Shown in pieces: positions 271 through 9,945 of a stretch of DNA of 46,239 nucleotides. The position numbers and the translations under genes were made by a program. The notes under the pieces are model-generated. The model did no database searches. It saw only the letters and a list, made by a program, of their open reading frames with translations, and was not told where the DNA came from. Source of the DNA: Lachnospiraceae bacterium (GTDB lineage: Bacteria; Bacillota; Clostridia; Lachnospirales; Lachnospiraceae). The stretch is from contig SVEJ01000024.1 in the NCBI GenBank assembly GCA_015057435.1, positions 1 to 46,239 of the forward strand. Reading direction: 5' to 3'. Within the stretch, counting starts at the first letter, position 1. Every line of letters begins with the position of its first letter.

Positions 271-396
271 TCTCTTCTTCCATCCAGACTATACTGTCGG
301 CACCAGAATCTCACTGGTTCCTGCCTTACGGCTCGCGGGCTCAAGAATCATCATTCTAATACCGCCGGTGGAGACTTTCACTCCGCCCTGAAGATT
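271..396 (-). ncRNA. FMN riboswitch (RFN element)
   Basis: Read on the minus strand, all conserved RFN blocks are present in order: CTTCAGGGCGGAGTGAAAG at the 5' side, ACCGGCGGTAT, AGCCCGCGAGCC, GGCAGGAACCAGTGAGATTC, GCCGACAGTATAGTCTGGAT, then GGAAGAAGAG, which closes P1 with the 5' TCTTC. In the Clostridia this aptamer controls riboflavin import (ribU) or synthesis genes. The regulated gene would lie left of position 1 and is not seen. The promoter is at 417-445 and a terminator at 121-155. Its first strand is duplicated at 6508-6531, where the rest of the aptamer is missing. Confidence 0.95.
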
Positions 397-447
397 ATAT
401 TCAATTGACCTTAGGTATTATAACGCATTATAGAACGTTATACAACC
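372..447. repeat. Left attachment-like repeat (attL)
   Basis: About 76 bp matching 6508-6583: identical in the first 24 nt (372-395, riboswitch 5' strand) and the last 31 nt (417-447, promoter), and diverged in the 21 nt between. The intact aptamer continues to the left, and element DNA with GGTGTACT repeats lies to the right. This is the expected layout of a tyrosine-recombinase junction. Confidence 0.75.
417..445 (-). promoter_or_regulatory. Sigma-A promoter of the FMN riboswitch leader
   Basis: Minus strand -35 TTGTAT (440-445), 17-bp spacer, -10 TATAAT (417-422). The predicted start is near 410, just upstream of the aptamer. The box pair lies inside a 31-bp block (417-447) repeated identically at 6553-6583. 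Confidence 0.75.
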
Positions 448-520
448 TTTATTTTATAAGGTTTTGCAGAATCTCAAAATATACAAGTCATTATAAGTCG
501 TTATAAATGTTCTTCCATTT

Positions 521-540
521 GGTGTACTTTTTGGTGTACT
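521..540. repeat. Arm-type repeats, left end (2 x GGTGTACT)
   Basis: GGTGTACT occurs at 521-528 and 533-540, immediately beyond the stop of the integrase fragment. The same pair occurs at 6436-6454 beside the right junction. Short direct repeats near both ends are typical integrase arm-binding sites. This role is inferred. Confidence 0.55.
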
Positions 541-542
541 AA

Positions 543-1472
543 TTATCCCATCTTGACTTGTAATTGTTTTAACTTCTCAATCTCACGTTTTACACGTTCT
601 GCATCCACATGGTTATACACTCTCATTGTTGTTCTAATGTCTGTATGACCCAATAAATATTGCATAACTTTTATATCACATCCAGATTCAGCTAATCGTG
701 TCGCAGCCGTATGTCTTAGAATGTGTGGTGAAATATGTGGTAATTGAATCTCTCTACTGTTATTACTACTTGGAATTTTGCCACTTCCACTTGAACTTAC
801 ATTACTTCCTTTACCAGTAACATAAGCAGAACCACTCATTAACGCACGACCTCTTGAGTCAATATGTCCGTTCTTTAAAATCTCGGAAGTTTGAATATGG
901 TTGAAAATTATGTCATTAGGCTTTGTGTTAACAAATTCATCACCATTTTCACCTATGACTCTGTACTTGCCATCTGAAACTAATATCTCCGCACCAAGTT
1001 CTCCTACTAATGCTTTACCAGAATGACCAACTCGCCATGAACCATTTGCAAATGCCGAACCAGTCCAACTAGAATTACCAGATTCACTTGTCTTACTAAC
1101 AGCAGTTTGAATTACATTCTTTACTTTGGTAATAATAGATGTACCTTGTACTTCCAAACCGATTTTAGCCGTATATGTACCATTCACAAGATTTACAATC
1201 TGCGACCTAGCATTAGCAACCTCCGATGTAATGTCAATCTTTGGTTTCATAGTCATACTGTCAACGGATTTCTTTAATCCTTGTGCATCCTCTTCTGCTT
1301 TTGACGTATCACTATTTACAGTAATAATTGAGGTTAAATCCAAGCTATTTTCATCAGCAATCTTCTGTTGTTGCTTTTGAACCTCAATAACCATTTGTGA
1401 ATTAAGTGGGTTTGCATCTATCTGCTTTTGCAACTCAAGAATCTGCTCTGTAGCCTTTTGCTTATACCACAT
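543..1472 (-). pseudogene. Tape-measure fragment fused to tyrosine integrase C-terminus
   Basis: A 309-residue open frame made from two unrelated phage genes. Residues 1 to about 240 resemble the C-terminal part of a tail tape-measure protein: an N-terminal coiled coil, then Gly/Ser-rich repeats such as GHSGKALVGELGAEIL. From about 244 (LPHISPHILRH) it is the end of a tyrosine recombinase, with the HxxR box, the LLGH box and the nucleophile Tyr286 in TMRVYNHV. The arm-binding domain and the first catalytic Arg and Lys are absent, so it cannot recombine DNA. The fusion marks a large internal deletion of a former prophage. No ribosome binding site was seen, so expression is doubtful. Confidence 0.85.
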
Positions 1473-1733
1473 TGGAAGCCATAAAGAATGATATAGAATA
1501 TAGACAAAATGCTTGATAAATAGAATAAATTGAAAAAAATAAGGTTGAAAGAATAATAATATTTTACTCTTTCAACCTTTGCTTTTTTTATTCTGTTGGA
1601 TGGTGGGCGGATAGTTTACATTCTTTCGAAATATAGTGTCCTCTCAAAAGGGTATAGCAGATGTACTCCCACGTTGCTTGCTATTTTGAACACCGAAGTA
1701 GACTCTTACCCACACCTATACTTATCTACATTT
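1473..1733. other. Intergenic stretch without a recognisable gene
   Basis: Contains a bidirectional terminator at 1541-1579. The remaining ~150 bp (1580-1733) has no supported coding frame; it may be decayed phage DNA. Confidence 0.5.
1541..1579. terminator. Bidirectional terminator
   Basis: An 11-bp perfect stem (AAGGTTGAAAG at 1541-1551, CTTTCAACCTT at 1569-1579) is flanked by a T-run on the right and an A-run on the left, so it can stop transcription both ways. It separates the 1734-2885 gene from the integrase-fusion remnant. Confidence 0.85.
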
Positions 1734-2885
1734 CTATTCTTCTATTGTCCAAGATGCAATATATTCATATTCCGTAAACTCGACATCCGTAACAAAAGAC
1801 AATTTTGCTTTATCTCCTGGAGCAAATGCAGATAAACTATTAGTATACTCACTGCCTACTTGTATTCCTTCTTCATCAATTAATTTTATTTCAACAGAAA
1901 AATAATCAAATGTCACATCCAAAGTGTTTTCTATTGTCATCTCATATGTAGTCCATCCATAGCTTGATGAAATTTTTTCAAATCCTCCTGCCATCATCTT
2001 TGTTACTTTTTCTTTTTGCTCTTCTTTTTCAATAATTGTCTTTGCCTCAGATATAAAATTGTCTAAATTATTTTGATATTCCTCTTCAACACTTAAACTA
2101 TTATCTTCCACAAATATTTTTATTAATAACGCACGTTTATCATATCCTTCGTCCCAAATACTTAGATATCTATCATTATTATTTCCATAATACTGAATAG
2201 CTTCAAGCTGAGTATTAAGTGCATCAATATAGCTAACTACATTTTCTTTCAATTTATCATCCAAAAAATCTAACTCGGCATACTTACTTATAGAGTCTAG
2301 TTCAGCATTTACTAGATTAGTACGATTACTTTTAAAATCTGCAGTATCAAGTTTATCTTCGTCAACACTATCAGATAATTTCCATCTTTTAACCAACCCA
2401 TTTGCCAAATCATTTATAAATTGTACATCTGGTGATAATTGATATTCACATTCTTCTAAAATAGATTTTGAATCTTCATAATCACCAATATCTCTTAGTA
2501 TCGTTTTCGCTTCTTCATATTTACTTACTTCGTATAATTGTTTTGCATACTCATATTTACATTTCAAAACTTTATCTTGTGAATCCTTATAACCCTCTAA
2601 ACTCAAATAAATTTCCGAAGCCTCTAAATATTTCTCGGCATCAAACAATTCATTTGCAGATTGGTAAACTCGACTATTTTCCGTCAAAAAATATATTGTG
2701 CAAGCACCTATAGCAATTATAATAAGCACAATACTCACAGATAATATAGCTTTTTTAGATATTGTCTTCTTTTTTCTTACTTTATCAGTTTTTTTCATTT
2801 TTTTTATTGGACAACCGCAATCTGGACACTGATTAGCCTTGTCAGAAATCTCTTTCCCACACTCTGGGCACTTTATAAGTGACAT
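1734..2885 (-). CDS. Zinc-ribbon membrane protein with TPR-like repeats and a C-terminal FxLYD-type domain
   Basis: 383 residues. A zinc ribbon (CPECGKEISDKANQCPDCGC) occupies residues 6-25, followed by a Lys-rich linker and one membrane segment at about 45-67. Residues 75-145 carry helical repeats of the 'A..LFDAEKYLEASEIY' kind, resembling TPR/Sel1 units. The last ~90 residues form a beta-rich domain (MTIENTLDVTFDYFSVEIKL) similar to FxLYD/DUF3426-like domains. The N-terminus is probably cytoplasmic and the repeats external. Start: ATG preceded by GAGGGGG. It has a near-consensus promoter at 2915-2943 and is divergent from an HTH gene that may regulate it. Such proteins are common in Clostridia, but the function is unknown. 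Confidence 0.85.
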   Translation of the reverse strand: MSLIKCPECGKEISDKANQCPDCGCPIKKMKKTDKVRKKKTISKKAILSVSIVLIIIAIGACTIYFLTENSRVYQSANELFDAEKYLEASEIYLSLEGYKDSQDKVLKCKYEYAKQLYEVSKYEEAKTILRDIGDYEDSKSILEECEYQLSPDVQFINDLANGLVKRWKLSDSVDEDKLDTADFKSNRTNLVNAELDSISKYAELDFLDDKLKENVVSYIDALNTQLEAIQYYGNNNDRYLSIWDEGYDKRALLIKIFVEDNSLSVEEEYQNNLDNFISEAKTIIEKEEQKEKVTKMMAGGFEKISSSYGWTTYEMTIENTLDVTFDYFSVEIKLIDEEGIQVGSEYTNSLSAFAPGDKAKLSFVTDVEFTEYEYIASWTIEE

Positions 2886-2914
2886 AAATATATCCCCCTC
2901 TTTTGTTTTTTTTA

Positions 2915-2943
2915 ATTATAGTCACTTTACTGACCATAGTCAA
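2915..2943 (-). promoter_or_regulatory. Sigma-A promoter of the zinc-ribbon/TPR gene, with repeated TGACTAT
   Basis: Minus strand TTGACT (2938-2943), 17-bp spacer, TATAAT (2915-2920). TGACTAT is present twice, overlapping the -35 and the -10, which suggests an operator for the adjacent HTH protein. The operator role is inferred. Confidence 0.75.
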
Positions 2944-2995
2944 GAATAAGACTACCCAATATGCTTATCCTATAAAGAAAAGGAGGCATTGGAAA

Positions 2996-3214
2996 ATGAT
3001 TAGTTATAATCCATTTTGGACAACGTTAAAAAAATCATCTGAAACAACTTACACTCTGATTAATAAGCATCATATTTCCAGTGCAACTATTGATAAACTC
3101 CGCAATAATAAACCCATGAACACAACTACTCTTAATGATTTATGCCGTATTCTAAATTGCAGACTAAATGATATTGCTGAATACATCCCATCCGACACCG
3201 ACCAAACATTATAA
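2996..3214 (+). CDS. Small Cro/CI-type HTH regulator
   Basis: 72 residues starting at the ATG at 2996, which has AGGAGG at 2981-2986; longer in-frame starts lack a ribosome binding site. The pattern (FWTTLKKSSETTYTLINKH, then SSATIDKLRNNKPMNTTTL and DLCRILNCRLNDIAEYI) is that of the short Xre-like HTH_26 family, which is nearly all DNA-binding domain. It is the only rightward gene in the element and lies head-to-head with the zinc-ribbon/TPR gene. It probably acts as the element's local repressor, binding the shared intergenic region. Its target is inferred from position only. Confidence 0.85.
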   Translation: MISYNPFWTTLKKSSETTYTLINKHHISSATIDKLRNNKPMNTTTLNDLCRILNCRLNDIAEYIPSDTDQTL

Positions 3215-3323
3215 TCCTTGTGTGCAGCGGGACTATATAAGGGGAGGGGGTATGTTTACAATCTGAAAATTTTAAGTACCTACTATATAAGGGTATACCT
3301 CTAAAAATTTACGAAAAAAATAA

Positions 3324-3349
3324 GGGACTCACATATTTTAGTGAATCCC
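3324..3349 (-). terminator. Terminator of the three-gene zinc-ribbon operon
   Basis: Minus strand stem GGGATTCAC / GTGAGTCCC (one G-U pair) followed by TTATTTTTTT, just past the stop at 3356. Confidence 0.85.
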
Positions 3350-3355
3350 ATCTTT

Positions 3356-3757
3356 TTACCACTTACATCCACAATTATTGCAACACATAGTATTTCTTAC
3401 ATCAGAACTAAACAATCCAAAAGCTATACCACCTAAAACTTTTTTACCAGATGATATTTTTTGTACATTGGTAGAACCACAAGTAATACATTTGGGAATG
3501 TTCAGATTGCTATTTCCCTTATTTGTAATCGAGGCTTCTAAATTGTAATTTTGTTTATATTTAATTGTTCCCATTCCAATATTAGAACATGAACTACATA
3601 TAATTTTTTCCGATTCCTTTACAATACAATAATCGTTATAAATTTTTTGGAAAATATTAATGTCTTCTATTTCTAATATTTTCCCACATTTATTACATAT
3701 AACATCAACTTCTGACGGATTGCCATTTTCATCAAAATATGCTTTGTCAAAAAACAT
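3356..3757 (-). CDS. Double zinc-ribbon protein of unknown function
   Basis: 133 residues from the ATG at 3755-3757, chosen because AGGAAG sits at the right distance; a GTG three codons upstream is too close to it. Two cysteine groups are visible: CNKCGK...CSSC in the first half and CITCGSTN...CCNNCGCKW at the end, each able to bind one zinc. Between the last pairs is a short hydrophobic stretch (VLGGIAFGLFSSDVRN). The C-terminal pattern recurs in hypothetical proteins of Firmicutes phages and islands. It is the last gene of the operon starting at 4913 and ends in a strong terminator. Confidence 0.8.
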   Translation of the reverse strand: MFFDKAYFDENGNPSEVDVICNKCGKILEIEDINIFQKIYNDYCIVKESEKIICSSCSNIGMGTIKYKQNYNLEASITNKGNSNLNIPKCITCGSTNVQKISSGKKVLGGIAFGLFSSDVRNTMCCNNCGCKW

Positions 3758-3805
3758 ATCAATCACTTCCTTTCTTAGATTCTATGTCGTTTTATCCACA
3801 ATATA

Positions 3806-4390
3806 TCAATCCAACTCTTGAACTCTTCTCTCAAAAATCATAACATCTTCACACGCAGTAGCATTGACACCAAAACCAAGTAACATCAAGGCATTTTTAC
3901 CTAATTCATTAGAGTACATCGTATGCAATTTCCAACCTTTCTTTGCATGGTCTGACAAAATCTTCATCATCTTCTCTTTATCTACTGTACCATGATTCTC
4001 ATTGATGATAGTAACTACATCGTATTCATAAAACTCATTGAATGATTTAGCATAATTTACACGTTGTAGTTCTTTCTCTTTTGCATCTGCCACTTTTTGA
4101 ATATGGTCTTGTATTCCAATACCCATTAATCTTTTAAATTTATTATCAATGTGTTTATAAAACTCTCTCTTAATGATATCTTTATCAGCAGTTGCAGTTG
4201 CTTGTTCATCAATAGTAGTTGCTATTCTTTCATAACATTCCGTATATTTATCAGCTTTATTTTCAGTATCTAGTTGAATTAATCCTGCTCCACCAAATGT
4301 AATGAAACATGGGTCACACAACAATCCATCAAAATGCTCGCCTGACATAAAACCAATTTTACATCCACAATTCGCACACGTTTTAGCCAT
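3806..4390 (-). CDS. DUF4428-like zinc ribbon fused to a DUF4177-like domain
   Basis: 194 residues. The start is the ATG at 4388-4390, supported by GGAGG eight nt upstream. Residues 3-28 form a treble-clef-like zinc site (CANCGCKIGF...LLCDPC) as in DUF4428 proteins. The middle is helical and charged. The C-terminal ~60 residues (YEYDVVTIINENHGTVDKEK, AKKGWKLHTMYSNELGK, EDVMIFERR) match the short DUF4177 fold. The start is 16 nt past the stop of the YbjQ-type gene, so the two are co-transcribed. Function is unknown; domain names are recalled from pattern, not searched. Confidence 0.82.
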   Translation of the reverse strand: MAKTCANCGCKIGFMSGEHFDGLLCDPCFITFGGAGLIQLDTENKADKYTECYERIATTIDEQATATADKDIIKREFYKHIDNKFKRLMGIGIQDHIQKVADAKEKELQRVNYAKSFNEFYEYDVVTIINENHGTVDKEKMMKILSDHAKKGWKLHTMYSNELGKNALMLLGFGVNATACEDVMIFERRVQELD

Positions 4391-4406
4391 TATTTTATCC
4401 TCCGTA

Positions 4407-4913
4407 TCAATCACTTGATTTTTCAATAACAACCGACGTTCCGTTTACTGATACCATAATCATATTACTACCTGCATACGGAACAATTTGATATGAAACT
4501 CCAACAATTGCATTTCCTTCCATAGAAATTGATTCTTTAATCATTTCTAACACAGCTAATCTTTTAGCTTCCTTTATTTTGTTGGAATATGCTTTTGATT
4601 CCACACCAAATAAATCTGATAGACCTGATTTAAAATCCGATAAAAAGCCTGTACCTAGTACAATTTCACCAGAAACTAAACCTTTATATTCTTTAATAGT
4701 AGTTTCTACAAAACTGTTTGTAGTAGTCAATTTATGATTTTTGATATCCTCATTTGAATATGGATTATTTTCTATAGACTGTTCTTCTATATCTAATAGT
4801 GTTTGTTCGTCCAATTGAGACTTATCAAATATGTATCCACATTCCCAACACATATTGGCTTCTATCATCTCTTCGGTTATCTTGTTTCCACAATTCGGAC
4901 AATTCTTAACCAT
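4407..4913 (-). CDS. Zinc ribbon plus YbjQ/UPF0145 domain protein
   Basis: 168 residues. Residues 5-26 are a zinc ribbon (CPNCGNKI...MCWECGY). From about 63 the YbjQ (UPF0145) domain follows: VETTIKEYKGLVSGEIVLGT, FKSGLSDLFGVES, A-rich helix, AIVGVSYQIVPY and a closing VSVNGTSVVIEK. YbjQ proteins form pentamer-like rings and are linked to metal or stress roles, without a settled function. It is the first gene of a three-gene operon behind an extended -10 (TGGTATAAT) and a GGGGAGGG ribosome binding site. Confidence 0.88.
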   Translation of the reverse strand: MVKNCPNCGNKITEEMIEANMCWECGYIFDKSQLDEQTLLDIEEQSIENNPYSNEDIKNHKLTTTNSFVETTIKEYKGLVSGEIVLGTGFLSDFKSGLSDLFGVESKAYSNKIKEAKRLAVLEMIKESISMEGNAIVGVSYQIVPYAGSNMIMVSVNGTSVVIEKSSD

Positions 4914-4948
4914 ATAGTACCCTCCCCATAAATTAAATTTACAACCAA

Positions 4949-4957
4949 ATTATACCA
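4949..4957 (-). promoter_or_regulatory. Extended -10 promoter of the YbjQ operon
   Basis: Minus strand TGGTATAAT, a TGn-extended -10 box. No good -35 is seen. It is the only strong box between the 4996-5029 terminator and the gene start at 4913. Confidence 0.55.
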
Positions 4958-4995
4958 TTTAATTTATATTCATTCCACCATCAATAAAAAAAATA

Positions 4996-5029
4996 AGGCA
5001 TACCAGATAACTTAATATCTGATATGCCT
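4996..5029 (-). terminator. Terminator after the HslV-like gene pair
   Basis: A 14-bp stem with one mismatch (arms 4996-5009 and 5016-5029, loop of 6), followed on the minus strand by TTATTTTTTTTATT. It separates the HslV-like unit from the YbjQ operon. Confidence 0.9.
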
Positions 5030-5035
5030 ATATAT

Positions 5036-5236
5036 TTACTGAAACATTAACATTCGCATAATAGAATCATCTAATATTTTTACATTTTCTTTTACTACAG
5101 CTACATTCTCATTAATGTTTGAAAATATAGAGTAGTTTCTCTTAAATCTATCTAATCTCATCTGTTGTATTTTTTGTTGAAATGTTTCTTCATTTTTCCA
5201 ATAGTTAGGAGATAAATTAATATATCCATCAATCAA
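5036..5236 (-). CDS. Small helical protein downstream of the HslV-like gene
   Basis: 66 residues if the TTG at 5234-5236 is the start. No clear ribosome binding site is present, so the start is uncertain and an internal ATG (residue 26) is possible. The sequence is charged and helical (YWKNEETFQQKIQQMRLDRF) with no cysteine, membrane segment or known motif. The frame opens 14 nt after the stop of the HslV-like gene and ends 7 nt before a strong terminator, so it is probably expressed by coupling with that gene and could be its partner or substrate. This is position-based inference. Confidence 0.5.
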   Translation of the reverse strand: MIDGYINLSPNYWKNEETFQQKIQQMRLDRFKRNYSIFSNINENVAVVKENVKILDDSIMRMLMFQ

Positions 5237-5250
5237 ACCAATATTATTAT

Positions 5251-5856
5251 TTATATAACATCAACCTTTCTTATTCTTTCAAATGTTGCCTTATTATTAA
5301 TTGAATCATCTAATTTAATGCCGATTTGCAAGACATTCTTAAAAATATTTTTCATTTGAGTAATATTTATAATAGAGACACTTTTACCAAATTCTATAGC
5401 ATTATTATAATGTACATTTAATCCACAACTGACAACTCGTACAGTTTCGGCATCCTGAGGTGTCAAATCATGAATTCCATTCTTATTAGGATTATCGTCT
5501 TTAGTAAAGAAAGCTTTTCCAGTCATTTTAACACCATCCCATCCACACAAAACACTGTGAACATTATGAACTTGTAAATAATCATAATTATCATAATAAG
5601 ATTTACAAAGTGATTTGCATATATCATTATAAGATACACACGAAAAATCTCCTCTTAATGAAAAATCTGAATTAATAAATTCTGAAAACAATTTAGCATT
5701 ACCTTCAATTGTTCCTGTCATTCCAATAATTGCAGTATCACTTATTTTTCTTACCTTAACAAAATTCTCTAGTATTTCACCATTGTTTAATTTTGCTCGT
5801 TGTTCACCAGCAACTACTATAAAATCTCTATAAATATAAGCTTGAACCAAACTCAT
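5251..5856 (-). CDS. HslV/proteasome-like Ntn hydrolase with N-terminal Ser
   Basis: 201 residues from the ATG at 5854-5856. GGAG lies nine nt upstream, favouring it over a TTG five codons earlier. After Met removal the protein begins S-L-V. Numbered from that Ser, the first 37 residues align without gaps to HslV from recalled sequence: IVVAGEQRAKLNN at 12-24 matches VVIAGDGQATLGN, Glu17 replaces Asp17, and Lys33 is kept in KVRKI. Then IIGMTGT follows as in AGFAGG. These are the catalytic landmarks of the threonine/serine peptidase fold; Bacillus CodW also uses Ser1. No HslU/ClpY ATPase lies nearby, and the C-terminal half is diverged. A peptidase role is likely but unproven, and a non-proteolytic Ntn fold is possible. 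Confidence 0.8.
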   Translation of the reverse strand: MSLVQAYIYRDFIVVAGEQRAKLNNGEILENFVKVRKISDTAIIGMTGTIEGNAKLFSEFINSDFSLRGDFSCVSYNDICKSLCKSYYDNYDYLQVHNVHSVLCGWDGVKMTGKAFFTKDDNPNKNGIHDLTPQDAETVRVVSCGLNVHYNNAIEFGKSVSIINITQMKNIFKNVLQIGIKLDDSINNKATFERIRKVDVI

Positions 5857-5938
5857 TTTTACCATCTCCAATCATCAATACTGTAACTAATATTATATAT
5901 CAATAATTGGAATATAGCAGTACAAATTATTTAATAAG

Positions 5939-5967
5939 GTATATCGAATATTTCTACTCAATATACC
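5939..5967. repeat. Inverted repeat between the HU-like and HslV-like genes
   Basis: GGTATAT at 5939-5945 and ATATACC at 5961-5967, a 7-bp perfect dyad without a U-tract. It could be a weak terminator or an operator. Confidence 0.35.
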
Positions 5968-6018
5968 TATAATAATTAATCCTCAACAAAAGGTTTTACT
6001 TCATACTTTAACAACGCA

Positions 6019-6201
6019 TCATGGGATAATTGTACCCACTTTAGAAATCTGTACTCGCTCACCATTTATCATGCACTTGCGAACCTCATCTGCATACATT
6101 CGTAGAATATCTTTAATTATATCTTGCTTATATAAGTTATCTTCACGATTGTATATCCTTGCAGCCATCTTCACTTCACTCATTGTTGACTTAGTAGCCA
6201 T
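6019..6201 (-). CDS. HU/IHF-like protein, probably truncated
   Basis: 60 residues from the ATG at 6199-6201, preceded by AAGGAGG. It resembles the N-terminal two-thirds of phage HU-family proteins: two helices (LYKQDIIKDILRMYADEVRK) followed by GERVQISKVGTIIP, matching the 'GekVqi.gfGtf' beta strand of HU. HU proteins are about 90 residues with DNA-binding beta arms, and this one stops just before the arms. The +1 frame stays open for a further 15 codons after the stop. Either a frameshift cut it or a short phage form exists. It is the first gene of the element's leftward set at the right end. Confidence 0.7.
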   Translation of the reverse strand: MATKSTMSEVKMAARIYNREDNLYKQDIIKDILRMYADEVRKCMINGERVQISKVGTIIP

Positions 6202-6246
6202 GTTTTCTTTCCTCCTTTTTGTCAATAAAATGTATATTTTAAATAG

Positions 6247-6303
6247 TGGCTATAATCCAACCACAGAAACCTTATAGAACACTCTGTAAGGCTCATATAG
6301 CCA
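6247..6303. repeat. Structured hairpin upstream of the HU-like gene
   Basis: Outer 8-bp stem TGGCTATA (6247-6254) / TATAGCCA (6296-6303) with an inner 5-bp stem CCTTA/TAAGG. It could be a leader structure on the minus strand or a recombination or packaging site. Its role is not known. Confidence 0.45.
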
Positions 6304-6341
6304 TTTTAATGTTGTTCGTGCGAATTTCTTCCACACGATAG

Positions 6342-6401
6342 ATTTGAACACTAAAATAAGCCTACTATCAAACGATAATAGACTTATGGTAAAGTTCAAA
6401 T
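6342..6401. repeat. Long bulged hairpin near the right element end
   Basis: Outer stem ATTTGAAC (6342-6349) / GTTCAAAT (6394-6401), with inner ATAAG..CTA..ATC pairing with GAT..TAG..CTTAT around an AAAC-type loop. No U-tract follows, so it is not an ordinary terminator. Being 35 bp from the arm repeats suggests a role in element mobility. Confidence 0.45.
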
Positions 6402-6435
6402 ATTTAATTCATATTAAGGCTCTTTTTTGGCAATT

Positions 6436-6454
6436 GGTGTACTTTTGGTGTACT
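6436..6454. repeat. Arm-type repeats, right end (2 x GGTGTACT)
   Basis: GGTGTACT at 6436-6443 and 6447-6454, in the same orientation as the left pair at 521-540 and with nearly the same spacing and flanks (TTGGTGTACT, then TAA or TAAG). Confidence 0.55.
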
Positions 6455-6507
6455 AAGCCATTTTCAAGTAGCTCTAAGTATTGATTTTACAAGGTTTTCT
6501 TCAAAAC

Positions 6508-6583
6508 AGACTTTCACTCCGCCCTGAAGATACTATTTAATTTCCGTAGGTCATTATAACGCATTATAGAACGTTATACAACC
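6508..6583. repeat. Right attachment-like repeat with truncated FMN riboswitch and promoter
   Basis: Second copy of 372-447. It keeps the promoter (minus strand TTGTAT at 6576-6581, 17 bp, TATAAT at 6553-6558) and the first 24 nt of the aptamer, then switches to element sequence. The promoter therefore fires into the element with an incomplete, non-sensing aptamer. Confidence 0.75.
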
Positions 6584-6624
6584 CTTATTTTCCAATGGTT
6601 TCAAAGAATGGCAATGCACATCTG

Positions 6625-6948
6625 TCATTTTTTTCTATACTTTGACTCAATCTTTACGGTATACACCACAGCTACTACTATTACCTCTAGCATCACGCCT
6701 ACAATAGAGATAAAAAATAGTGGTGAATTTTGCTCAGCTATTAAAAATGGAAATCCAAGCAATGCCAAAACAGTTGCGAATGCACACCATAATTTTCCAA
6801 CCGCACAATTATAAGCTTTCACATTCTCTATCTCTGGCGGTTTCACATTTGACCAGAACCCAACCGGTTTGTCTGCTTTAAATGAGAAAACTCCAAATCC
6901 CAAAAATATCAAACATACCAAAAGCCAAATCACAAGACCGATTATCAT
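6625..6948 (-). CDS. Small integral membrane protein
   Basis: 107 residues with three hydrophobic segments (about 2-22, 52-72 and 76-97) separated by a charged stretch (KPPEIENVKAYN). The size and arrangement recall small DUF3784/SdpI-like membrane proteins of Clostridia; this is a weak resemblance. The ATG is preceded by GGAGGG. The gene ends about 40 bp from the right copy of the riboswitch promoter, so it is the original chromosomal neighbour of the FMN leader. It lies downstream of the 7007-7471 gene and is probably co-transcribed with it. Confidence 0.75.
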   Translation of the reverse strand: MIIGLVIWLLVCLIFLGFGVFSFKADKPVGFWSNVKPPEIENVKAYNCAVGKLWCAFATVLALLGFPFLIAEQNSPLFFISIVGVMLEVIVVAVVYTVKIESKYRKK

Positions 6949-7006: not shown

Positions 7007-7471
7007 TTACTTCATATACAATCCAGCTAGTTTATATTCTTTATCAAATGTAAGCGTATACGTTACCACTTTATCTCCATATGTTACCGGTAGTTGTGCA
7101 ACTGCATACAGTTTCCCTGACTGCTCCATTTCTACGATTGATGCATCGCCAAACGATACATTTGCCTTCCAATCTACATCCATTTTTTCTTTCGCTGAAT
7201 CCATCTTTTCCTTGGTCAGAAATTCTTTCATTGTTTCGTCTGCATAATCTTGTTGCAATGTTTCATAATCTTCCATGTTCAACGCAAATACAACAGCCAG
7301 ACACTTCACTTCCAACTCGTCTTTCGTAAAGGTTGTACTCTCTTCAATCGGAACAGTCTTCGGCATCATGTAGTTCGACAACACTATTAAGCCTGCCAGC
7401 ATTATACCTAAAATCACAATAATTAGAATTATAATCTTTTTCTTACTCATTTTCTCTTTTTGCTTTTCCAT
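7007..7471 (-). CDS. Membrane-anchored DUF3887-like extracytoplasmic protein
   Basis: 154 residues. A Lys-rich cytoplasmic start and one membrane segment at about 13-33 are followed by an external domain of about 115 residues. That domain (LNMEDYETLQQDYADETMKE, then AVAQLPVTYGDKVVTYTLTF) resembles DUF3887, an NTF2-like fold found in exported Firmicutes proteins. No lipobox Cys is present. The ATG follows AGGAAGGA. The gene has its own promoter at 7505-7533. The ligand is unknown. Confidence 0.75.
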   Translation of the reverse strand: MEKQKEKMSKKKIIILIIVILGIMLAGLIVLSNYMMPKTVPIEESTTFTKDELEVKCLAVVFALNMEDYETLQQDYADETMKEFLTKEKMDSAKEKMDVDWKANVSFGDASIVEMEQSGKLYAVAQLPVTYGDKVVTYTLTFDKEYKLAGLYMK

Positions 7472-7587: not shown

Positions 7588-8208
7588 TTATTTGTCCTTA
7601 CTTCTGCGATTCTTTTGCTGTTTCATGCTGATGTAAGTAGACAAATCTTTGCATAGATTCCGTGTCTCCATTCCATAAATAATCATATGTTCCATCTCTT
7701 CTAACCGAACAACACGTCCTATCAGCTTTAGATTATAGCCCATGTCACTAAACACAACCGTCAATTCATCACCAAGCTCTAACTCCAGATTCTTATCTCT
7801 GTCAGCAATGGAAAATCCGGACAAGCTAACATCTCGGATCATAACATCCGTACCCTGCCTTCCAATCATAGCCATTCTGGCATACACTCCAACACTGACA
7901 CGAAAACAGCTTCTTCGATTATGGCGCACACCTTCCCCTGCAACCTGCAAAACATATTGTCCTTTCACATTCACAATACGGGCTGCTCTCCAGATAAACG
8001 GAACCCCATCTTCCGGCGCATATTCTATATTCAGCTGTACATTTTCAAAATTCAGAGTACGCCCATCCTGAAAAATAATCTCAATAATTGCGACATTCTC
8101 TTTCAAGACTTTTTTCACAAACCCTTGTAGCTTCATCTCACCCATGTCTGTACTTGCTATAATGGTCAATGCGTCTCTTTCTTCTAAATCTGATAACTTA
8201 AGCCCCAA
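7588..8208 (-). CDS. YcgR-like flagellar-brake/PilZ domain c-di-GMP receptor
   Basis: 206 residues. The N-terminal half is a YcgR-type beta-barrel domain (LTIIASTDMGEMKLQGFVKK). The PilZ domain follows, with both c-di-GMP motifs visible: RSCFR (RxxxR) at about 98-102 and DVSLSG (DxSxxG) at about 126-131. Such proteins bind c-di-GMP and change motility, adhesion or secretion. The start is the TTG at 8206-8208 with GGAGG eight nt upstream; no better ATG exists. No flagellar or diguanylate cyclase gene lies in the window, so the downstream target cannot be named. Confidence 0.9.
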   Translation of the reverse strand: MGLKLSDLEERDALTIIASTDMGEMKLQGFVKKVLKENVAIIEIIFQDGRTLNFENVQLNIEYAPEDGVPFIWRAARIVNVKGQYVLQVAGEGVRHNRRSCFRVSVGVYARMAMIGRQGTDVMIRDVSLSGFSIADRDKNLELELGDELTVVFSDMGYNLKLIGRVVRLEEMEHMIIYGMETRNLCKDLSTYISMKQQKNRRSKDK

Positions 8209-8535
8209 ATTGTACCCTCCGTGTGTAAATCAAAACACAATCGCTTGTAATACCCATACATATCAACACCTTGTATTTATTATAACAAATGAAAAACCAT
8301 TTGAACACTACAATCCGTGCTAATTTTCAAAAAAATTTCAACTTAAATGCTCTAATTAAAGTATGCATTTCATTAATAAAAGGAAGTTTCTACAAAAAAT
8401 ACTCAAATAATCATAAATTTCTGTCACTTTTTTTACTTGCCAGTTCTTCTATTGCTTGTTATACTCATTTGTGGTAAAAGACAAAAAGTCAGGCTATTAT
8501 TGACATAAACTCATATGAAAAAAGGAGCATATATC
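8209..8535. other. Divergent intergenic region between the PilZ and PurF-like genes
   Basis: About 330 bp, very AT-rich. The minus strand holds an extended -10 (TGTTATAAT, 8279-8287) likely serving the PilZ gene. The plus strand has TTGACA at 8499-8504 and TATTAT at 8494-8499, but no well-spaced box pair for the PurF-like gene. No purine, PRPP or ppGpp riboswitch core was recognised. Confidence 0.5.
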
Positions 8536-9945
8536 ATGGGCGGATTTTTCGGAGTCGTTTCAAAAGAAGATTGTATGTTTGATCTATACTTTGGAACAGA
8601 TTATCATTCTCATCTAGGCACCAGACGTGCCGGTTTAGTAGTATACGGAGACAAAGGATTTGATCGTGCAATTCACAATATTGAGAATTCACCATTCCGT
8701 ACAAAATTTGACAAAGACTTTCATAAAATGCAGGGACATATGGGAATCGGTTGTATTTCCGATTACGAACCTCAACCATTAATGGTTCGCTCCCATCACG
8801 GAACATATGCCATTGCTACTGTTAGCAAAATCAACAATGCTGATGCAATTGTAGAGTCTCTTTTTGCAAACGGAAACTCTCATTTTTTGGAAATGAGTGG
8901 TGGAGATATTAATCCTACTGAATTAGTAGCCGCTATGATTAACCAAAAAGAAAACTTAATTGATGGTATCAATCACGCTTTAGATTTGGTAGATGGCTCC
9001 CTTTCTATTATGTTGATGACTTCCAAAGGAATTTACGTCGGACGTGACAAACACGGACGTACACCAGTTGTTATCGGTAAGAAAGAAGAAGGTTATTGTA
9101 TTACTTTTGAAGACTTTGCATATCGTAATCTTGGCTATGATGATTACAAAGAATTAGCCCCGGGCGAAATTGTAGTGGTTGCAGAAGATGGTGTTAAAAC
9201 TCTTATGACTGCTGGCAAAAATATGAAAATCTGTACCTTCCTATGGGTATATTATGGATATCCATCTAGCTCCTACGAAGGGATCAGTGTCGAACAAATG
9301 CGCTACAATTGCGGTGCCCGCATGGCACAGCGAGATAATGTAAAGCCTGATATCGTAGCCGGTGTACCAGATTCCGGAATGGCACATGCCATTGGTTATT
9401 CCAACGCATCAGGAATTCCTTTTTCAAGACCATTTATCAAATATACTCCTACATGGTCTCGCTCATTTATGCCAACCATTCAAAGCAAACGTGAACACAT
9501 TGCCAAGATGAAATTGATTGCTGTTCATGATTTGATTAAAGGAAAGAGCCTGTTGTTAATTGATGATTCTATCGTTCGTGGAACACAGCTTAGTGAAACA
9601 ACCGAGTTCTTGTATGCAAGCGGTGCAAAGGAAGTACACATTCGTCCTGCCTGCCCACCAATCATGTATGGTTGTAAGTATTTGAATTTCTCCCGTTCCA
9701 CATCTGAGATGGACTTGATTTCCAGAAGAATGATTTGCAAGCTTGAGGGAACAGAGGATGTTCCAGAAGAGGTATTACAGGAGTACACCAATCCAGAGTC
9801 TCCAAAGTACGACCAGATGGTAGAGGAAATCCGCAAGGAATTGAACTTCACTACACTTCGCTACAACCGCTTAGATGATATGTTAGATGCGGTTGGAATT
9901 CCAGTTGAGAATCTTTGTACGTACTGCTGGGATGGTAAGGAATAA
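8536..9945 (+). CDS. PurF-like amidophosphoribosyltransferase paralogue lacking Cys1
   Basis: 469 residues from the ATG at 8536, chosen for AGGAG eight nt upstream; an ATG at 8515 has none. Residues 1-220 have the PurF class-II glutaminase layout and residues 220-469 the phosphoribosyltransferase domain, with the PRPP loop LLIDDSIVRGT at about 340-350. PurF normally begins M-C-G-I and uses Cys1 to free ammonia from glutamine. Here the protein begins MGGFFGVV and the usual Asn-Gly pair is also gone, so glutaminase activity is not expected. Cysteines at the [4Fe-4S] ligand sites of Bacillus PurF seem kept (Cys233 in KICTFLW, PIMYGCKY, LCTYC). It may use free ammonia, be regulatory, or have another substrate. 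Confidence 0.85.
   Translation: MGGFFGVVSKEDCMFDLYFGTDYHSHLGTRRAGLVVYGDKGFDRAIHNIENSPFRTKFDKDFHKMQGHMGIGCISDYEPQPLMVRSHHGTYAIATVSKINNADAIVESLFANGNSHFLEMSGGDINPTELVAAMINQKENLIDGINHALDLVDGSLSIMLMTSKGIYVGRDKHGRTPVVIGKKEEGYCITFEDFAYRNLGYDDYKELAPGEIVVVAEDGVKTLMTAGKNMKICTFLWVYYGYPSSSYEGISVEQMRYNCGARMAQRDNVKPDIVAGVPDSGMAHAIGYSNASGIPFSRPFIKYTPTWSRSFMPTIQSKREHIAKMKLIAVHDLIKGKSLLLIDDSIVRGTQLSETTEFLYASGAKEVHIRPACPPIMYGCKYLNFSRSTSEMDLISRRMICKLEGTEDVPEEVLQEYTNPESPKYDQMVEEIRKELNFTTLRYNRLDDMLDAVGIPVENLCTYCWDGKE

Follow-up and report, generated by a model that had tools for sequence, protein, structure and literature searches.

A putative prophage-like remnant at an FMN riboswitch of a Lachnospiraceae bacterium and the integrase clade linked to it

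The window analysed here, a stretch of 46,239 nucleotides (nt) from a Lachnospiraceae bacterium (contig SVEJ01000024.1, positions 1 to 46,239; genome G000), carries near its start a complete flavin mononucleotide (FMN) riboswitch aptamer on the minus strand (268-399; Rfam RF00050, model positions 1-138, 108 bits compared to a gathering score of 66.2). It is the single RF00050 match at gathering score in the window, so that a second riboswitch start, located about 6 kb away, has no aptamer after it. Both starts belong to a direct repeat (372-465 and 6508-6601) with 84% identity and a start-to-start distance of 6136 nt, which ranks first among the direct repeats of the first 8 kb. It contains two perfectly identical blocks, one of 24 nt (372-395 and 6508-6531) and one of 31 nt (417-447 and 6553-6583), the latter including the promoter TTGTAT-17-TATAAT. 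An earlier note on this DNA had described an intact FMN aptamer with the promoter and aptamer start repeated at both ends of a mobile element; the aptamer is complete and the coordinates were right. It had also taken the recurring block for the first 24 nt of the aptamer. A block of this length does recur, but it corresponds to positions 5-28 of the Rfam match and not to the very first bases. In the following, the riboswitch-side copy of this core is called D (downstream) and the far upstream copy U. Very likely, U and D represent the two halves of an attachment site, separated by an element that has integrated here and whose Tn916-Int-like recombinase would act inside the 5' strand of FMN aptamers.

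The two junctions are built alike, and all features given below lie on the minus strand unless stated otherwise. According to the repeat comparison, the D copy of the core (372-395) spans the aptamer from the P1 5' strand through P2/L2, with a likely crossover within 379-395. The promoter now preceding the riboswitch (417-445) was probably supplied by the element, as suggested by comparison with relatives. It is followed at the integrase end by a pair of arm-type repeats GTACACCAA (519-539; single copies at 519-527 and 531-539), similar to repeats found in relatives, and by the C-terminal remnant of a tyrosine recombinase of the Tn916-Int-like clade (543-770; PF00589, 57.8 bits). The corresponding open reading frame (ORF, 543-1472) retains only the last ~75 integrase residues (PF00589 profile positions 122-171 of 172), which are 89% identical to the integrase of genome G007 over a short overlap. 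At the far end, a second GTACACCAA pair (6434-6453; single copies at 6434-6442 and 6445-6453), with similar repeats in five other left ends, is found next to the U copy of the core (6508-6531), an orphan FMN aptamer start. Beyond it lies a displaced promoter (6553-6581), which comparison with relatives suggests to be the original host riboswitch promoter. The 46 kb contain five copies of GTACACCAA (0.31 expected; five copies reached by none of 100 shuffles), and four of them form the same-strand pairs at the two junctions, in agreement with the earlier remark that such pairs flank both of them. The idea that the window copy could still be excised by its own integrase is not supported, since only the C-terminus of this protein remains.

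An integrase-first search was conducted in a collection with one genome per species, using two peptide patterns and an integrase alignment. This pattern scan, which was not exhaustive, led to seven confirmed loci: those of G007 and G023, from which the query came, four new ones in G421, G422, G423 and G424 (63-68% identical) and one in Rhodoblastus (L092). The Rhodoblastus locus was rejected as a close relative (20% identity, no FMN riboswitch). A family search added the integrase of G288, which is present in two pieces (63 and 65% identical). In all five newly reached genomes (G421, G422, G423, G424 and G288), with integrases in the range of 60-71% identity, a complete FMN riboswitch above the gathering score is located just downstream of the integrase on the same strand. 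The same is true for G007 and G023, which had first been found via their riboswitch DNA. The G288 integrase is split over contigs C40 and C38 (L093, L094). Its N-terminal piece lies on another contig with no riboswitch nearby, and since a large serine recombinase ORF (PF07508, PF00239) precedes the C-terminal half, another mobile element probably sits inside this gene.

The family search yielded 38 match rows, 30 of them with loci (one being the N-terminal half of G288); of the other eight, only G288:C40 was followed further. The remaining 29 loci, with 37-42% identity, served as controls. An FMN riboswitch was detected at one of them only, in G238, and was absent from the other 28 in the scanned flanks of at most 1.5 kb per side, several of which were shorter owing to contig ends. 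Five further Tn916-like loci had no FMN riboswitch either. In a midpoint-rooted tree of 37 integrases, the eight FMN-linked rows form one branch (support 100/100) with G238, on a long branch, as its sister (99/97). As the FMN-linked integrases form one clade and 28 of the 29 distant loci are devoid of the riboswitch, landing specificity appears to follow the integrase lineage. Thus, the relatives tie the riboswitch position to an integrase clade and, together with the promoter and aptamer 5' strand found at both ends, uphold the earlier proposal of a mobile element integrated at the FMN riboswitch. As a separate observation, pemK RNA motifs (RF02913) were found next to 10 of the 34 Tn916-like integrase loci that were scanned (L059, L065, L066, L070, L073, L074, L075, L077, L078 and L083).

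Taking all search routes together, each of the 12 genomes with an integrase or remnant of at least 45% identity has the core 106-204 nt past the end of the match as well as a full FMN match, a count that includes genomes reached through riboswitch DNA and is biased in this respect. These genomes belong to the window's genus, to g264 and to the genera of G421 and of G422, groups that have no listed member in common, with G423 in addition. Full-length relatives with the same integrase, which the earlier note had proposed to look for, exist at FMN riboswitches in G421, G422 and G436, each with an apparently full frame. The catalytic domain PF00589 scores 93 bits in G007 and 114 bits in G023; the N-terminal arm-binding domain PF02920 is recognised in the G007 integrase (50 bits, cut-off 27) and is absent from the window remnant. 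In G023 (L039:636-1805), a Tn916-Xis-like N-terminus (PF09035, 67.6 bits) has been joined to the catalytic part, apparently by deletion.

The genes behind the riboswitch differ between hosts. The downstream gene is ribD (TIGR00326) in two genera, that of the window and that of G421; it follows the riboswitch in G003, G009 and G023, and in G007 ribE comes directly after the riboswitch and ribD lies beyond the other end. In G422, G423, G288, G436, G443 and G238, the downstream gene encodes the S component of an energy-coupling factor (ECF) transporter, presumably ribU-like, with PF12822 matched in G422, G288 and G238. Because this position is taken by ribD or ribE in some hosts and by the ECF transporter gene in others, the integration target looks like the FMN riboswitch itself rather than one gene locus. 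In G008 (L041), the riboswitch is followed first by an ORF of the epimerase family (PF01370) and not by a rib gene; here the operon seems to have been lost or moved.

U copies were found in seven genomes (G000, G007, G421, G422, G288, G436 and G462), and no FMN match was detected in the six U loci scanned. In G421, the U and D copies enclose 55.5 kb (C2:8.5-64 kb, L124-L127); in G007, the contig ends in the core, and over the 115 nt that lead up to this end the two copies do not differ. Five pairs can be read on both sides (G000, G421, G422, G288 and G436). In all of them, homology between U and D ends +20 or +21 from the TTC of the core and fades upstream through the promoter, and the longest run identical within all five pairs is a 17-nt stretch at the aptamer start. 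The fixed right edge in the aptamer and the fading homology upstream argue for a crossover in the aptamer and for an element-borne promoter. The crossover most likely falls within the 17-nt stretch, at about Rfam positions 5-21; the promoter at D would then derive from the element and the displaced one at U from the host.

These comparisons suggest the following course of integration. The element's own site would consist of an aptamer start with a complete promoter in front of it and, because of this arrangement, integration would detach the host promoter and substitute the element's, and the aptamer would be rebuilt. The host promoter would be left on the U side, directed into the element and toward a conserved terminator-like hairpin. 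Flavin control could thus outlast such an insertion. For the window, the earlier claim that it does so is not supported, since a second repeat, at which the contig stops, stands between the riboswitch terminator and any rib gene. On balance, we favour the view that a prophage-like lineage of gut-type bacteria has come to use a metabolite-sensing mRNA leader for its integration and exchanges promoters in doing so, with the flavin genes placed under the element's and the element end under the host's.

The same integration system might instead cross over in the -10 region, in which case the downstream part of the promoter and the leader at D would still be the host's. A 13-nt block near the -10 box (-37 to -25) is indeed identical within all five pairs, and the two G000 copies agree throughout the 31-nt promoter block with diverged flanks, a pattern that one crossover in the aptamer would not account for. 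However, homology stops within 1 nt of one aptamer base in five of five pairs, which would be unexpected if the crossover took place 30-50 nt away. Furthermore, between the -10 box and the core of G000, the U copy by eye is closer to G008, where no integrase is present at this site, and the D copy to the scarred G003. We therefore regard a crossover in the -10 region as unlikely.

Besides the two promoter blocks, several observations weigh against integration at the aptamer start as described above. No D copy was found for G462 and no U copy for G009, G023, G423 and G424. Most integrase copies are broken, an apparently full frame being confined to three of the 12 genomes, and that of G423 is cut by the contig end. 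Element-type sequence is also present upstream of the U copy in G421 and G007, which indicates that these sites were previously occupied or hold elements in tandem. A family-wide scan for orphan cores detected one in only 1 of 397 genomes (G288), with a pattern that lets through ~42% of random continuations of the core and does not recover G000. Moreover, ribD of G000 is located elsewhere, on contig C22, where an acetyltransferase gene precedes it; the part of this region that was scanned has no FMN riboswitch.

The left ends of the elements are conserved in their order. In all six that could be compared (G000, G421, G422, G288, G436 and G462), the core is followed by arm-type repeats (TTTACACMA-like; GTACACCAA in the window), the motif GAGCCTTAATATG and a hairpin. 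In the window, GAGCCTTAATATG lies at 6410-6422 and the hairpin at 6342-6401, with a terminator-like inner stem at 6356-6387. For six of the 29 predicted pairs of this hairpin, one or more of the six sequences differ at both paired positions. A scan of 7 kb of the window gave six terminator-like sites, the inner stem among them, where 1.9 were expected. The hairpin may stop transcripts starting from the displaced promoter. Near the left end of G421, G422, G288, G436 and G462 there is also a conserved unknown protein of ~150 aa, with 58-65% identity to the G421 version; no protein of this size occurs at the left end of the window's element.

Taken alone, the window, with its 84% repeats and no intact integrase, would also fit a local rearrangement of the rib leader, by homologous recombination or slippage, with the integrase remnant as a bystander. 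This is highly improbable given that all five new integrase relatives are located at FMN riboswitches, that the left ends are conserved in six of six cases and that 55.5 kb lie between the copies of G421. Equally far-fetched is a preference of the elements for AT-rich promoters upstream of riboflavin genes with the riboswitch merely nearby. The promoter blocks, which are shared too, would fit such a preference, but the homology edge is sharp and lies inside the aptamer, and the riboswitch leader is the common feature of two kinds of downstream genes.

Relatives of the host shed further light on the site. Riboswitch DNA was matched in 23 of 26 genomes of the window's genus, its own genome counted, and in G007, G009 and G023 the match continues into the integrase end. 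The window's element is flanked by three host genes (6625-6948, 7007-7471 and 7588-8208, the last encoding a PilZ domain, PF07238) and by a purF-like gene on the plus strand (8515-9945). The first two have orthologues in G008, where they and a full riboswitch are 3.4 kb apart; the PilZ-domain and purF-like genes have theirs in G003, where they lie near a full riboswitch with an element-type flank and one arm repeat. No integrase match was detected beside the riboswitch of G003. As the element-type flank persists there without an integrase, the elements may have rewired flavin promoters permanently. The search for an empty site, also proposed in the earlier note, was successful in G440. The gene upstream of the U copy of G462 has a counterpart in this genome (92% identity over 464 aa) directly upstream of a full riboswitch, and the alignment of both genomes runs along the leader up to the same edge. 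G012 was considered as an empty site for G007 and set aside as weak, since the upstream gene matches and the leaders do not align.

The gene content of the larger relatives points to prophage-like elements, as we call them here. The G421 element encodes a 2990-aa tape-measure-like protein beside the integrase as well as ParB-like, tubulin/TubZ-like and HU-like proteins. A further protein of 1072 aa is 25-30% identical to proteins of the SPbeta group and other phages (best eight of 34 phage records), two of these eight matches being annotated as yonO RNA polymerase; no YonO-like protein was found in 12 examined loci of other elements. The tubulin-like protein matched no phage record. The family scan covered ORFs of at least 110 aa, with one such ORF left out. 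Among the families listed (25 of 84 and 25 of 34), structural matches were of tape-measure and tail type only, and no capsid, portal, terminase, relaxase or VirB4 was present. The exact 24-nt core had no match in viral_contigs; integrase alignments to this collection gave no hit with alignment A1 and two at 21-24% identity with A3. Integrase matches in phage and plasmid records were all below 60% identity, the best among the matches listed being 36.7% and 35.8%.

In the window's own element, the first gene at the far end encodes an HU-like protein (6019-6225; PF00216, 21.9 bits, below the cut-off of 22.4) with 44% identity over 63 aa to a left-end gene product of G422. The integrase remnant is fused in frame to a fragment (771-1472) with partial resemblances: 77 aa resemble a segment beside the tape-measure matches of a 176-kb fecal phage, and 86 aa are similar to a stretch lying upstream of the N-terminal half of the G288 integrase. 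This fragment had no match in the family library and no significant match to the two tape-measure proteins compared. Based on these likenesses of the HU-like gene and the fused fragment, the element in the window, 6.1 kb long, is most likely what deletion has left of a larger prophage-like member of the riboswitch-linked family.

Islands and prophages with tyrosine recombinases reside at tRNA and tmRNA genes, a subject reportedly treated by Williams in 2002. The elements studied here are similar in that a conserved RNA sequence is targeted, the RNA is rebuilt by the attachment site and one RNA family is used at several loci. Unlike those islands, which occupy the 3' end of a stable RNA, they would replace the 5' side of an mRNA leader together with its promoter. 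With Tn916-type integrases they share PF00589 and PF02920 and, in one relative, the fused Tn916-Xis-like PF09035; Tn916 has loose AT-rich targets, whereas the present clade was found at FMN riboswitches only. SPbeta has a different integrase type and site. The YonO-like protein of G421 and the ParB-like and HU-like genes are reminiscent of SPbeta-like phages, but capsid, portal and terminase are missing among the families listed for the present elements. The nearest precedent found is that of islands and prophages at dusA, which integrate at the 5' end of the gene, supply new 5' sequence with putative -10/-35 boxes after integration and are bordered by imperfect direct repeats, as stated in PMC4482086. 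The 5'-end replacement, the putative promoter boxes and the imperfect repeats are shared with our elements; the target differs, being protein-coding (dusA) there and an FMN riboswitch here, and the likeness is one of the site.

In the titles and abstracts of the open-licence literature searched, there was no report of a riboswitch as an attachment site. FMN riboswitches would be a new class of landing site for mobile elements. Riboswitches resemble tRNA genes in traits of a good landing site, namely strong conservation and several copies across hosts. An integrase clade associated with FMN aptamers would place cis-acting mRNA leaders beside stable RNAs among the known target classes. Attachment sites would then be expected in many bacteria that carry an FMN riboswitch, and the clade offers a natural case of promoter replacement before an intact sensor. 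Searches for islands that are limited to tRNA genes or coding ends are expected to miss such elements.

Between the fused fragment and the HU-like gene, the ORF list and family scan revealed cargo ORFs (1734-2885, 3356-3766, 3806-4432, 4407-4913 and 5251-5871, together spanning 1734-5871) for zinc ribbon, DUF4177 and YbjQ proteins and unknowns. On the other side of the aptamer, the terminator scan detected a terminator-like hairpin (127-156), which would belong to the expression platform of the riboswitch; by eye, a similar hairpin is located before ribD in G003. Directly after this terminator lies the end of a multi-copy, insertion-sequence-like repeat (1-127, no strand assigned), inside which the contig starts and of which 127-128 nt are common, at 98-100% identity, with the ends of contigs C63, C57 and C65. 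A hairpin-like sequence was seen by eye at the junction in four of four copies, the terminator scan covering the window copy. The repeat also carries small hairpins of its own and may be an insertion sequence that targets terminators.

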